Part shown: piece by piece, positions 15,312 to 54,660 of the stretch | How positions within the stretch are numbered: the first letter of the stretch is position 1 | Layout: every line of letters starts with the position of its first letter | Source: Scytonema hofmannii PCC 7110 | GTDB taxonomy: Bacteria > Cyanobacteriota > Cyanobacteriia > Cyanobacteriales > Nostocaceae | NCBI RefSeq assembly: GCF_000346485.2 | Contig: NZ_KQ976354.1 | Span: 3,289,421 to 3,353,420, forward strand | DNA length: 64,000 nucleotides | Reading direction: 5' to 3' | Notes under the pieces: generated by a model | Databases searched by the model: none | What the model saw: the letters and a program-made list of their open reading frames with translations, nothing else | Told to the model about the DNA's origin: nothing | Translations under genes and position numbers: made by a program

Positions 15312-15370
15312 AGTAGGCAGGGCTAAAGCCCACCAAAAGATTCAGTTTGTGGGCTTTAGCCCTGCCTACT
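15312..15370. repeat. Perfect 22-bp inverted repeat between solute-binding genes
   Basis: Arms at 15312-15333 and 15349-15370 are perfectly complementary (core GGCAGGGCTAAAGCCC) around a 15-base loop. It looks like a dispersed cyanobacterial palindrome. In the transcript it would form a very stable hairpin that could attenuate or protect mRNA between paralogs 2 and 3. Confidence 0.85.
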
Positions 15371-45316: not shown

Positions 45317-45865
45317 TTAACATCCTCCAGCCCAAGTGATCCATTTGTGAGATAAGCCAGTGTATGTCTTACTTCCGCTCACTTCATGCTCGTTCATGGT
45401 GACTCCACTTAAGTCCGCGCCACTCAATTCAGCTTCATTTAAGTTGCTACCAATTAAATTTGCCTGACTCAGGTTAGCCCCACTTAAATCTGCACCACTC
45501 AATTCAGCTTCGCTAAGATTAGAGCCACACAAATTTGCTCTGACTAAATTGGCACTTCGTAAATCGCCTCGACAGAGATTGGCTTTTTCCAAGTTAACAT
45601 TAATTAAGTCGGCCCCAATTAAGTTTACTTCACTCAAGTTAGCACCCATAAGGTTTGCGCCGCTTAGATCGGCATCTGTTAAATTTGCACGGCTTAAATC
45701 GCATCCCCTGAGATCTGCACCCGTGAGATTTGCGCCACTCAAATCTGCTCCACCAAAGTTTGCACCATGTAAATCAATATCGTTGAGATTTTCTTGATGC
45801 AAATTCGTACCATTAAAATCCCGCTCTCCTGCTGCATATCGACTCAGGAGCTGATTAACGTCCAT
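45317..45865 (-). CDS. Pentapeptide-repeat protein
   Basis: 182 residues from the ATG at 45863-45865 (MDVNQLLSRYAAGERDFNGT), the normal family start; the frame extends upstream to 45916. About 24 consecutive A(D/N)Lxx pentapeptides (ADLSGANLTGADLRGCDLSR and so on, residues 35-160) would form one right-handed quadrilateral beta helix. Two segments, LSEAELSGADLSGANLSQAN and LNEAELSGADLSG, show recent internal duplication. No signal peptide, so probably cytoplasmic. Function unknown. Confidence 0.92.
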   Translation of the reverse strand: MDVNQLLSRYAAGERDFNGTNLHQENLNDIDLHGANFGGADLSGANLTGADLRGCDLSRANLTDADLSGANLMGANLSEVNLIGADLINVNLEKANLCRGDLRSANLVRANLCGSNLSEAELSGADLSGANLSQANLIGSNLNEAELSGADLSGVTMNEHEVSGSKTYTGLSHKWITWAGGC

Positions 45866-46178
45866 ATTGTCTGCCTCGCAATTGTGAATGAAGGAATCCT
45901 CTCTTAAACCACACAATCAAGATAATTTGCTCAGTTGCCAGCAACTTGAATTCTAAGAAAGTACTTGTAGTATTATCTATTTTGCTATATTTTTTTGCTT
46001 TCGGAGTATCTACTTAACGGAAATATACTTAATTTATTGAACCTAATTTACATACAGTCGTTTATCGAAATTTACAATCTTAAGTCACGTATCGTCATGC
46101 AATTCAATTACAAGTCAGACAATATAAACGGATTTTATTCTCTGGTTTTTCTATGAACATTTTTTAAGAGAAATGTAA

Positions 46179-46454
46179 ATGTTATTGCTTGTATTGTACG
46201 ATATTACTAATGATAAAAAATGCACAAAGTTGTTCACTTTCCTAGAAGTATATGGGCGAAGAGTGCAACTTTCCATGTTTAAATGTTTTTTAAGTTTAGA
46301 GGAGATGCGGCAACTTTATGAAAAGGTGAAAAAATTAGTTAAACCTGTGGAGGATAATGTGCGGTTTTATTGGATACCCCAAGAAGCTGTTGAGAGGGTG
46401 TTAACTATTGGAGGTGAATCACCTCAACCACCGCCAAAGTATTATGTTATCTAG
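46179..46454 (+). CDS. cas2: CRISPR-associated endonuclease Cas2
   Basis: 91 residues. LLVLYDITNDKKCTKLFTFL has the N-terminal beta strand and conserved Asp (YDI). YGRRVQLSMFKCFLSLEEM is the Q-x-S-x-F motif, then VRFYWIPQEAVERVLTIGGE and a Pro-rich tail. Cas2 dimers bridge two Cas1 dimers in the spacer-integration complex. It lies 345 bases upstream of a CRISPR array on the same strand, but cas1 and any effector genes are not in the window. 45917-46178 upstream has no gene. Confidence 0.93.
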   Translation: MLLLVLYDITNDKKCTKLFTFLEVYGRRVQLSMFKCFLSLEEMRQLYEKVKKLVKPVEDNVRFYWIPQEAVERVLTIGGESPQPPPKYYVI

Positions 46455-46482
46455 GTTTGAGGGTTCTTTGAGGGTTACTTTC

Positions 46483-46798
46483 AGATGTTCATCGACACCA
46501 CTCGCTGAATCGCTGAAACCCTATATTTTTCGTTGAGTGGTGTCGATAGCTTACTGGGCAAGGGTTTGAGGTACGTGTTTTGCTAAATTTTTGGGAGGAT
46601 ATACTTTTAAATGTCTATCGACGCATCTCCCCAAATCGCCGAAACCCTATATTTTCCGTTGAGATGCGTCGATGCCTTACAGGGAAAGGGTTTGAGGTAT
46701 GTGTTGCGAGCAATTTTTGGGAGAATGTACTATACTTTTTCTAGATGCGTCGATTTGGCTTCTGAAACCCTTACTGGGTAAGGTCTCCTAGACGAACT
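46483..46798 (+). promoter_or_regulatory. CRISPR leader with tandem structured units
   Basis: Unit 1 has stem arms ATCGACACCACTC (46491-46503) and GAGTGGTGTCGAT (46535-46547). Unit 2, 126 bp later, has ATCGACGCATCTC (46617-46629) and GAGATGCGTCGAT (46661-46673). Both are perfect 13-bp stems differing by three compensatory pairs. In each, AAACCCT in the loop can pair with AGGGTTT downstream (46516-46522 with 46561-46567; 46642-46648 with 46687-46693), an H-type pseudoknot. A third partial unit starts at 46743 (AGATGCGTCGAT, GAAACCC) and ends in a CCTTAC/GTAAGG hairpin 15 bases before the first repeat. The position and AT-rich spacers suit a leader. Confidence 0.75.
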
Positions 46799-47715
46799 CC
46801 CCACCGATTGGGTCAATTCGGATTAGTTGGAAACTGAGTGTTGGTGGCGCATCCGTGCAGGAAGCACCCCCCACCGATTGGGTCAATTCGGATTAGTTGG
46901 AAACGTTTCTTGGCCGTTGGCGAAGAAGCGGAGATCCCCCACCGATTGGGTCAATTCGGATTAGTTGGAAACTTGAAGACATCTTAAAAGATTTAACAAA
47001 ATAATTTTTCCCCACCGATTGGGTCAATTCGGATTAGTTGGAAACTAAATGCACTTCTCGCAATATCTATACAAAGAATCAATCCCCACCGATTGGGTCA
47101 ATTCGGATTAGTTGGAAACCACTTTGGGTTAATAAAATTGTCGAAGGGAATAAGGTGACCCCACCGATTGGGTCAATTCGGATTAGTTGGAAACTACTTT
47201 GTTCCAGTAGCTGGAAAAGAAGGGGAGTATGCCCCACCGATTGGGTCAATTCGGATTAGTTGGAAACCACTGATTCTTCTCTTGTTGATAAGCATGCTTA
47301 ATCTCCCCCACCGATTGGGTCAATTCGGATTAGTTGGAAACGGTATCCCATGTGTGCTTGCTGATTCGATAAAAAGTAAAGCCCCACCGATTGGGTCAAT
47401 TCGGATTAGTTGGAAACACGTTCTTGTTGATGAGCGCGATACCAATCTAGAACCCCACCGATTGGGTCAATTCGGATTAGTTGGAAACTTCACTGCAGTT
47501 TCCTGCGTTGATCGAGTCTGTATAAGAAACCCCCACCGATTGGGTCAATTCGGATTAGTTGGAAACCTTTCCTTCCCTTGTTAACAGCCAGCATAATCCC
47601 TGATCCCCACCGATTGGGTCAATTCGGATTAGTTGGAAACTTTAAATAGTGAAATAGTAGCCATGGAAAATTCCTCATTCCCCACCGATTGGGTCAATTC
47701 GGATTAGTTGGAAAC
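46799..47715 (+). CRISPR. CRISPR array, 13 repeats and 12 spacers
   Basis: The 36-bp repeat begins CCCCACCGATTGGG and ends ATTAGTTGGAAAC; all 13 copies appear identical. Repeat starts: 46799, 46869, 46937, 47010, 47084, 47159, 47232, 47306, 47382, 47453, 47531, 47605, 47680. Spacers are 32-42 bases, a wide spread. The GGAAAC 3' end fits the 5' handle of processed crRNAs, so transcription is probably left to right from the leader. No spacer was seen to match the rest of the window. The last repeat is not degenerate, so the array may once have been longer. 47716-48317 downstream has no clear gene apart from a MITE. Confidence 0.97.
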
Positions 47716-53867: not shown

Positions 53868-54473
53868 ATGCACCTCAAATTTTCTCAAGATATTAAGTCT
53901 CTGCTGCAACGGTTATCCGAACAGCCACTCAGTCTGGGTGATATTTTGGCTGAAACCTCAGAACGAGGATTTTGCCTGGTGATTATATTATTGGTATTGC
54001 CTTTTCTATTTCCTATACCACCCGGTTTAACAGGTCCCTTTGGTGGTGCTTGCTTGATATTATCAGTACAGATGGTTTTGGGAAAGCGATCGCCTTGGCT
54101 TCCGCAAAAAATAGCTAAGTATAAATTCCCTCGCGCTTTTGTTGAAACACTTTTACAAAACCTAAGACGCGTTACTAGATTGTTAGAAAAAATCACCCGT
54201 CCCAGGATGGCAAAAATCGCAAATCATCCTTTTATTTGGAGATTTAATGGGCTTTGTATTTCTTGGTTAATTCTTCTGCTGATTTCACCAATTCCTCTCA
54301 CTAATCCCATTCCTACCGTAGGAATCTTGCTTCTTGCAGTTGCTACGATAGAGTCTGATGGTTTGTTAATGTGTGTTGGTTATATTTTTACTGTTTTAAC
54401 AACTTTATTCTTTGGATTTATTTTTTACGCTTTGTGGATGGCTCCCAGTTTACTACCTCAAATTTTCCGATAA
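53868..54473 (+). CDS. ExoD-family exopolysaccharide synthesis protein
   Basis: 201 residues from the ATG at 53868 (MHLKFSQDIKSLLQRLSEQP); the frame is open to 53832 but passes through the heptamer repeat. LGDILAETSERGFCLVIILL followed by VLPFLFPIPPGLTGPFGG is the ExoD signature. GLCISWLILLLISPIPLTNP and VATIESDGLLMCVGYIFTVL are the later membrane helices. The family is linked to exopolysaccharide production in rhizobia; the exact role is unknown. Confidence 0.9.
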   Translation: MHLKFSQDIKSLLQRLSEQPLSLGDILAETSERGFCLVIILLVLPFLFPIPPGLTGPFGGACLILSVQMVLGKRSPWLPQKIAKYKFPRAFVETLLQNLRRVTRLLEKITRPRMAKIANHPFIWRFNGLCISWLILLLISPIPLTNPIPTVGILLLAVATIESDGLLMCVGYIFTVLTTLFFGFIFYALWMAPSLLPQIFR

Positions 54474-54499
54474 AAAAACCCTCAGCCACAGACTGAGGG
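54472..54499 (-). terminator. Rho-independent terminator (minus strand)
   Basis: Stem CCCTCAG / CTGAGGG (54479-54485 and 54493-54499) around a 7-base loop. Read on the minus strand it is followed by seven T. It would end transcripts from the nuclease-like genes at 54661 and beyond. On the plus strand there is no T-run. Confidence 0.75.
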
Positions 54500-54660
54500 C
54501 GGTAATTAGGGTGCATCTACCATCTCTATATCCCCCTCGTCTCTCTCTACCTCCGGAAAGAATCAAAAATTTGATGGGTAAGTTTGCTCAGATACCCGAC
54601 TTCGCATAAGTTATCGGGTATTAAGTTAGTTAAATGGTCTTTGAGAAAATGTCAAATTCG

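Follow-up and report, generated by a model that had tools for sequence, protein, structure and literature searches.

A self-matched three-copy DNA element in a family of cyanobacterial CRISPR leaders: a candidate element for spacer integration

Introduction

What keeps the two arms of an inverted repeat matched to each other in front of a CRISPR array? The question is raised by a 64,000-nucleotide stretch of the genome of Scytonema hofmannii PCC 7110 (the window; C1:3289421-3353420 of the 12.3-Mb genome G000), in which a CRISPR array is preceded by two tandem units that each contain a perfect inverted repeat. In the original prediction, which was made from the letters of the window alone, compensated differences between the two stems were taken as a sign of selection on an RNA or cruciform structure, a pseudoknot was considered possible, and a structured leader RNA, an anti-repeat-like regulator or an integration-host site was suggested as the function. 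The locus also bears on a wider matter, since the route by which the integrase reaches the leader-repeat junction without IHF is an open question for cyanobacterial and RT-Cas1 systems.

Results and Discussion

Organisation of the locus

The forward strand of the window carries, in this order, a decayed cas1 3′-end remnant (46057-46178), cas2 (46179-46454; TIGR01573, 55.8 bits, cut-off 24.5), the two units and a CRISPR array of 13 exact 36-nt repeats (46799-47715). The cas1 remnant was recognised by a Cas1 match with one stop (G000:C1:3335477-3335575, window positions 46057-46155); the bases beyond 46155 up to the start of cas2 were assigned by eye against a sister locus, L003. The units (46476-46601 and 46602-46727) form a 126-bp direct repeat with 79% identity. 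As described originally, they contain two perfect 13-bp inverted repeats 126 bp apart (46491-46503/46535-46547 and 46617-46629/46661-46673), whose stems differ by three compensated pairs (A-T/G-C, C-G/A-T and A-T/T-A); AAACCCT and AGGGTTT are present (in unit 2 at 46642-46648 and 46687-46693), and a hairpin, CCTTAC..GTAAGG, ends 15 bases before repeat 1 (46799). The inverted repeats are not due to chance, since none of 3000 first-order Markov simulations of 46455-46798 contained a perfect 13-bp inverted repeat with a gap of 3-60 nt, as compared with two in the real stretch. What had been overlooked is a further copy of the unit 2 arm in the third partial unit (AGATGCGTCGAT, 46743-46754), which co-varies with the other copies too.

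The same leader was found at four other places in G000 (L002, L003, L004 and L005). L002 is of the unit 2 type and L003 and L004 are of the unit 1 type, each with a third copy of the arm, T, in addition; L005 keeps the T end only. Window positions 46455-46619 match L003 and positions 46603-46798 match L002, both at 96%, so that the tandem can be read as a junction of two paralogous leaders near 46603-46619, where the two matches overlap. By these alignments, unit 1 represents a CRISPR leader of the L003 type that has been truncated, and it is fused to a complete paralogous leader (46617-46798) made up of unit 2 and the "third partial unit".

In the truncated leader, the L copy of the 13-bp element (46491-46503, reverse strand, allele ACCACTC) was assigned from the L003 match and the R copy (46535-46547, forward strand) as its inverted-repeat partner. 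In the complete leader, conservation begins with the L copy (46617-46629, reverse strand, allele GCATCTC), which was assigned from sequence and alignment. It is followed on the forward strand by motif A in the L-R interval (CGCCGAAACCCT, 46637-46648), after which many relatives have a TATAAT-like box; by the R copy (46661-46673), 44 bp from L; by motif B (GCCTTACAGGGAAAGGGTTTGAGG, 46674-46697); by a putative -10 box of a pre-crRNA promoter (TATACT, 46731-46736), assigned by consensus match only; by the T copy (TAGATGCGTCGAT, 46742-46754), 81 bp from R; and by second A and B motifs with the leader end (CTGAAACCCTTACTGGGTAAGG...TAGACGAACT, 46762-46798). Motif A, the R copy, motif B and this last segment were delimited by conserved columns.

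Three further features of the window were recorded: a pentapeptide-repeat-like ORF adjoining the CRISPR locus (45317-45916, reverse strand, by eye), a match to Rfam NsiR1, nitrogen stress-induced RNA 1 (54471-54522, reverse strand; 47.8 bits, gathering score 39), and a long perfect inverted repeat with arms of 22 bp, read from overlapping 13-mers (15312-15370).

Conservation of the leader and parent CRISPR-Cas system

The region lies directly 5′ of repeat 1 and is conserved between arrays with the same repeat, and was classed as part of the leader on these grounds. In a family-level search, 82 of 145 genomes gave a match at E≤0.01, where the query took in repeat 1 and 16 bases beyond it, only four candidates per genome were scored, and part of the matches are to the repeat only; among the long matches listed, most run from the L arm up to and including repeat 1. 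At the order level, the leader alone matched in 96 of 388 genomes (E≤0.001), in some of them partially. A profile search, with an HMM built without L093, L095 and L096, gave 196 matches; 20 that covered fewer than 165 columns were left out, and the remaining 176 collapsed to 139 distinct full-length leaders. Four of these belong to class 2 by their loop (see below), which leaves 135 class-1 leaders.

The neighbouring Cas1 was found in hosts that include Scytonema, Brasilonema, Nostoc, Fischerella, Calothrix, Coleofasciculus and Crocosphaera. When loci were fetched by Cas1, the full triple followed, by a strict pattern, in 17 of 24; two of the misses were Bacteroidales-type MAGs. The distance from cas2 to the leader was 39-42 bp in 29 of the 41 leaders with cas2 upstream. 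L003 (G000:C1:6.39-6.40 Mb) directly follows the genes for an RT, Cas1 and Cas2, and Cmr-like genes are close by. At this locus Cas1 (TIGR00287) and Cas2 scored above their cut-offs and Cmr3 above the Pfam cut-off; RT (297.4 bits, cut-off 300) and, with NCBIfam models, Cmr4 (69.4, cut-off 87) and Cmr2 (46.5, cut-off 79.4) scored below. Judged by this gene content, with RT, Cas1, Cas2 and Cmr together, L003 is an RT-Cas1 type III-B locus. The locus in the window retains cas2 and the cas1 remnant only.

One plasmid that carries this leader is annotated with a III-B Cas10/Cmr2 and Cmr3. The leader is present, whole or in part, in four cyanobacterial plasmid records (AP018301, NZ_CP026682, CP150887 and NC_019740), and no phage copies were found at E≤1. 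Arrays with other repeats carry related leaders. The L003 array is directly followed by another CRISPR array (L003 2610-3000), the repeat of which differs (GTCTCCACTAACAATGTGGAGGCGCATAATTGGAAAC).

Co-variation of the three copies

In the orientation of R and T, the 13-bp element reads GAG-nn-GYGTCGAT; L is the inverted copy, R and T are direct copies. The core GYGTCGAT is nearly constant, and positions 1-4 and 6 vary among the leaders of one genome. At position 3, G, T and A are about equally common (first 83 leaders), and the copies within a leader agree: L with R in 124 of 139, R with T in 122 of 138 and L with T in 126 of 138 leaders (43-45 expected). Positions 3, 4 and 6 were identical in all three copies in 103 of the 139 (shuffled mean 7.7, maximum 17). 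Chance-corrected matching was 0.83-0.96 at positions 3, 4 and 6 and 0.35-0.53 at positions 1 and 2. When column pairs at least three apart were ranked by background-corrected mutual information, the top 13 all connected L, R and T, and the 14th fell in the L-R loop.

The three copies are about equally constrained: over positions 0-9, a single copy deviated 53 times in L, 45 times in R and 64 times in T, and all three differed ten times. On a tree from which the element had been left out, position 3 changed 41 times in L, 43 times in R and 38 times in T, and the combined state 51 times; these counts are rough because the leaders are related and the alignment is short, and the co-variation statistics are uncorrected for the tree. 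Even where two leaders of a single genome are about 90% identical apart from the element, all three copies can differ (L020/L060 in G023; L144/L169 in G460). Among the 139 leaders, R copy positions 1-6 recurred as AGATGC (38), AGTGGT (32), AGGTGT (25), AGGTGC (8) and GAGTGT (8). The coupling ends sharply at the element edges on the tested sides, with flank matching of -0.05 to 0.14 over eight positions on the variable side (all three pairs) and of -0.05 to 0.03 over seven positions on the other side (R-T only). Since the variable positions co-vary among L, R and T about equally, L/R is not a simple hairpin.

Spacing, class-2 leaders and promoter-like sequences

As in the window, L and R are 44 bp apart in 115 of the 139 leaders. 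The R-T spacing is 81 bp in 130, 80 bp in four and 82 bp in five of these leaders, which were recruited by similarity to an 81-bp-spaced query that favours this value; T lies 56 bp from the leader end in 125. Measured from the T core to the end of GAACTC, the distance in class 1 was 53 bp in 100 of 114 leaders, seven of the 135 being without a T core by pattern and 14 without a leader end; the other values were 47 bp (11), 51 bp (2) and 55 bp (1).

Class-2 leaders, which were picked by their loop motif, differ from class 1 in the loop (CCTTGAAAAC...) and in the repeats of their arrays, and in the 11 that were measured the identity of the R-T interior to the class-1 consensus is only 0.41-0.55. 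The triple is nevertheless preserved, with alleles that are also seen in class 1. Twenty were found, of which L218 is without a recognisable T and L219 without a recognisable leader end. On the GAACTC measure, 18 of 19 class-2 leaders gave 53 bp (7) or 55 bp (11). A search over 70-105 bp gave a single T-like site in each of 19 class-2 leaders, at an R-T spacing of 80 bp (9), 81 bp (2) or 90 bp (8). The shift from 80/81 to 90 bp amounts to about one turn of the helix; since five genomes, some of them related, supply the eight leaders with 90 bp, the independent events may be few. No cas family was matched by ten proteins near five class-2 arrays, and the sole Cas1/Cas2 match in 28 loci (the class-2 set and the leader loci fetched with it) was at L209, a class-1 locus. 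One of the ten proteins, encoded close to its class-2 array (L212 10183-11964), is a reverse transcriptase of the group II intron type (TIGR04416, 343.9 bits, above cut-off).

A -10-like box with at most one mismatch to TATAAT precedes T in 105 of the 135 class-1 leaders; in the control, it was found in 98 of 128 real windows and in 937 of 2560 (37%) shuffled ones. A TATAAT-like box also precedes R (columns 20-41) in 85 of 139 leaders, as compared with 0-7 in the other windows tested. Both the shuffled control and the second box weaken the case for the class-1 promoter. The -10-like boxes of class 1 lie downstream of L, and promoter-like sequence upstream of L (at most three mismatches of 12) was found in 15 of 135. 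As the promoter consensus lies before T and R and is rare upstream of L, transcription in class 1 probably begins at T or R, and the RNA would exclude L; read-through from cas2 is possible. Of 18 class-2 leaders, 17 have a match to a TTGACA-type promoter (1-3 mismatches of 12), placed 16-28 bp before L. The triple keeps its distance to the leader end while the best promoter matches move between the classes, and to judge from these sequence features spacing and promoter placement point to integration rather than transcription; a part in transcription is still conceivable. Inversion of a promoter by recombination of L with T or with R gained no support: the 83 aligned leaders, recruited by similarity to one orientation, all show that orientation.

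Proposed function of the element

We favour, with slightly better than even confidence, a helically phased three-site DNA element for spacer integration, similar to the docking and folding motifs of types I-E, I-F and I-D. L, R and T would be DNA binding sites for the spacer-adaptation machinery, that is, Cas1-Cas2 and/or a host DNA-bending protein. The bound machinery would fold the leader and place the integrase on the first repeat, by analogy with IHF and the leader motifs of types I-E and I-F. Fixed, helix-phased distances between the sites and to the leader end, as in a docking motif, are present; a constant sequence recognised by the cognate Cas1-Cas2 was not found. If Cas1-Cas2 were the reader, a constant site would be expected; instead, alleles differ among leaders of one genome with a single close RT-Cas1 and hardly follow the tree of the adjacent Cas1-Cas2, which counts against this reading. 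By position and phasing the element may be likened to these docking and folding motifs; as its variable letters do not form a constant site for the integrase, it is not counted among them. Of the three functions suggested originally, an integration-host site comes closest to what the data favour.

A bolder form of this proposal, which we regard as rather unlikely, is that every leader has a private, self-matched three-copy address, and that the machinery requires a mutual match of L, R and T and not a fixed sequence. Recognition would then be homotypic or would occur by nucleic-acid pairing at the DNA level, and the leader would fold onto itself; if true, the self-match would be a cis-encoded self-recognition code for spacer integration. 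We know of no CRISPR leader motif that resembles a self-matching three-copy code. A literature search over titles and the beginnings of abstracts did not return the element; single motifs may have been described earlier.

Determinants of the allele

A trans-acting partner was sought in several places, and no gene tested followed the allele. Cas1 is not supported as the determinant, as G061 and G123 each have one close RT-Cas1 but two alleles. On the tree of adjacent Cas1-Cas2 (n=26), the allele needed 11 changes as compared with a mean of 13.4 after shuffling, and 18 of 300 shuffles gave a count as low; it is hardly linked to this tree. The genome is not supported either: 37 of 85 same-genome pairs share the allele, where pairs from different genomes with equal background identity would lead one to expect 33.0.

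The copies might also be operators of paralogous regulators, one regulator per leader with its allele at all three sites; T, near the transcription start, would be a repressor site that loops to L/R. That only a few alleles recur, and do so in class-2 leaders as well, that one whole site is occasionally replaced and that the spacing is helical would suit such operators, and the RT-cas1 locus encodes a candidate, TIGR03985, whose similarity to WYL/WCX is weak (below the Pfam cut-offs) and which was matched in 83 of 145 genomes. As the determinant it gained no support: the four leaders of G023 carry four alleles, and no TIGR03985 was found in that genome, whereas G061 has one copy and several alleles. 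G023 is without a close RT-Cas1, and its leaders may be relics under relaxed selection. The sharing of alleles within a genome, no higher than expected, speaks against regulators too, as does the best promoter match of class 2, which lies elsewhere than at T. One exact allele, searched in six genomes, gave 27 exact matches, mostly in leaders or leader-like spaced pairs and three isolated; a regulon outside leaders was also rejected, as the hairpin pattern, present in 18 of 99 genomes, gave matches that are leader-like in their loop sequence by eye. Operators of this kind are considered unlikely.

RNA structure and matching without function

The idea of selection on an RNA or cruciform structure survives in part. 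The match between the arms is indeed maintained, far above the shuffled level (103 of 139 against 7.7); an RNA stem as the cause is not supported, since the direct third copy is matched as well as the inverted one, the mismatches show no G.U preference and promoter-like sequence upstream of L is rare in class 1. The L-R mismatches comprised 14 G.U, 23 A.C and 75 others and the L-T mismatches 18, 29 and 84, where random mismatches would give about one sixth each of G.U and A.C. Compensatory changes at L-R pairs 7, 9 and 10 were present in 56, 36 and 76 leaders; the wobble tolerance of a structured leader RNA was not seen beside them. The supposed pseudoknot AAACCCT/AGGGTTT finds no support in the co-variation: three of seven pairs hardly vary (136-138 of 139 paired, no compensation) and the other four break, mostly uncompensated. 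An anti-repeat-like regulator is disfavoured by the presence of the same element in leaders with unrelated repeats. Folding gives uneven support: z-scores were -2.36 for unit 1, -0.67 for unit 2, the best fold of which differs from the 13-bp hairpin, and -0.28 for the third part; the antisense values were -2.85, -2.39 and -0.16, and the region 46455-46830 scored -3.08. No Rfam family was matched at the locus at gathering scores.

These results bear on an RNA switch, in which L would pair with R or alternatively with T, and the exclusive hairpins would control pre-crRNA synthesis or processing. L is complementary to R and T alike, compensatory changes at L-R pairs are abundant, and an RNA would hold all three copies if started at the likely class-2 promoter upstream of L or, in class 1, by read-through from cas2. 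The lack of a G.U excess in either set of mismatches, an R-T match about as good as L-R or L-T, the scarcity of class-1 promoter-like sequence upstream of L, the strict spacing and the negative Rfam search make such a switch quite improbable.

A small leader ORF was rejected: frame 0 from the L arm is open (median 41 codons) and without a coding signal, its synonymous excess being 1.11 (columns 0-166) or 1.17 (columns 0-60), with some other frames equal or higher. In many class-1 leaders (e.g., L009, L011 and L042), a recurrent AAGGAGGTTTTGTAACATG in the cas2-L gap of about 40 bp resembles a ribosome site plus an ATG that opens this frame, likewise without a coding signal.

Inverted repeats a few dozen bases apart are hot spots for template switching and gene conversion, and such events would keep L, R and T alike in cis with no partner in trans and no function; this is very unlikely, as conversion tracts should spill into the flanks, where matching falls to about zero on the tested sides, and R x T events should tend to delete the interval, yet its length is kept.

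Conclusions

The three-way cis-coupling is an odd evolutionary signature, of which fixed protein sites, RNA stems and gene conversion each explain a part only. With its precisely defined sites and distances and its natural alleles, the element lends itself to direct tests of its putative role in spacer integration.

Among known systems, the arrays of RT-Cas1 branch 5 are alike in gene content: the branch is reported to be specific to Cyanobacteria, as in the III-B system of Arthrospira platensis, and its RT adjoins Cas1 (PMC5513706), just as RT lies beside Cas1 with a type III-B effector here; the passages of that account examined describe no leader motif (PMC5513706). The type I-D leader of Synechocystis 6803 pSYSA is reported to span 202-220 bp, with conserved motifs I-III that enhance spacer uptake, the third of which is compared there to the integrase anchoring site of type I-E; for cyanobacterial I-D leaders, bending by a host factor distinct from IHF is proposed, Synechocystis being reported to be without an IHF homologue (PMC10212523). 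By eye, this leader shares a loop-like stretch, TGAACCTTGAAAA, with the class-2 leaders (L131 8100-8310) and, unlike the present element, has no clear L/R/T triple. In type I-F, Cas2 is reported to contact inverted-repeat motifs of the leader, and IHF to fold it (PMC12259127). The leaders of types I-E and I-F resemble the present ones in having an inverted motif at a fixed distance from the first repeat; they differ in that here the motif is present in three copies, whose letters vary between leaders but match within one.
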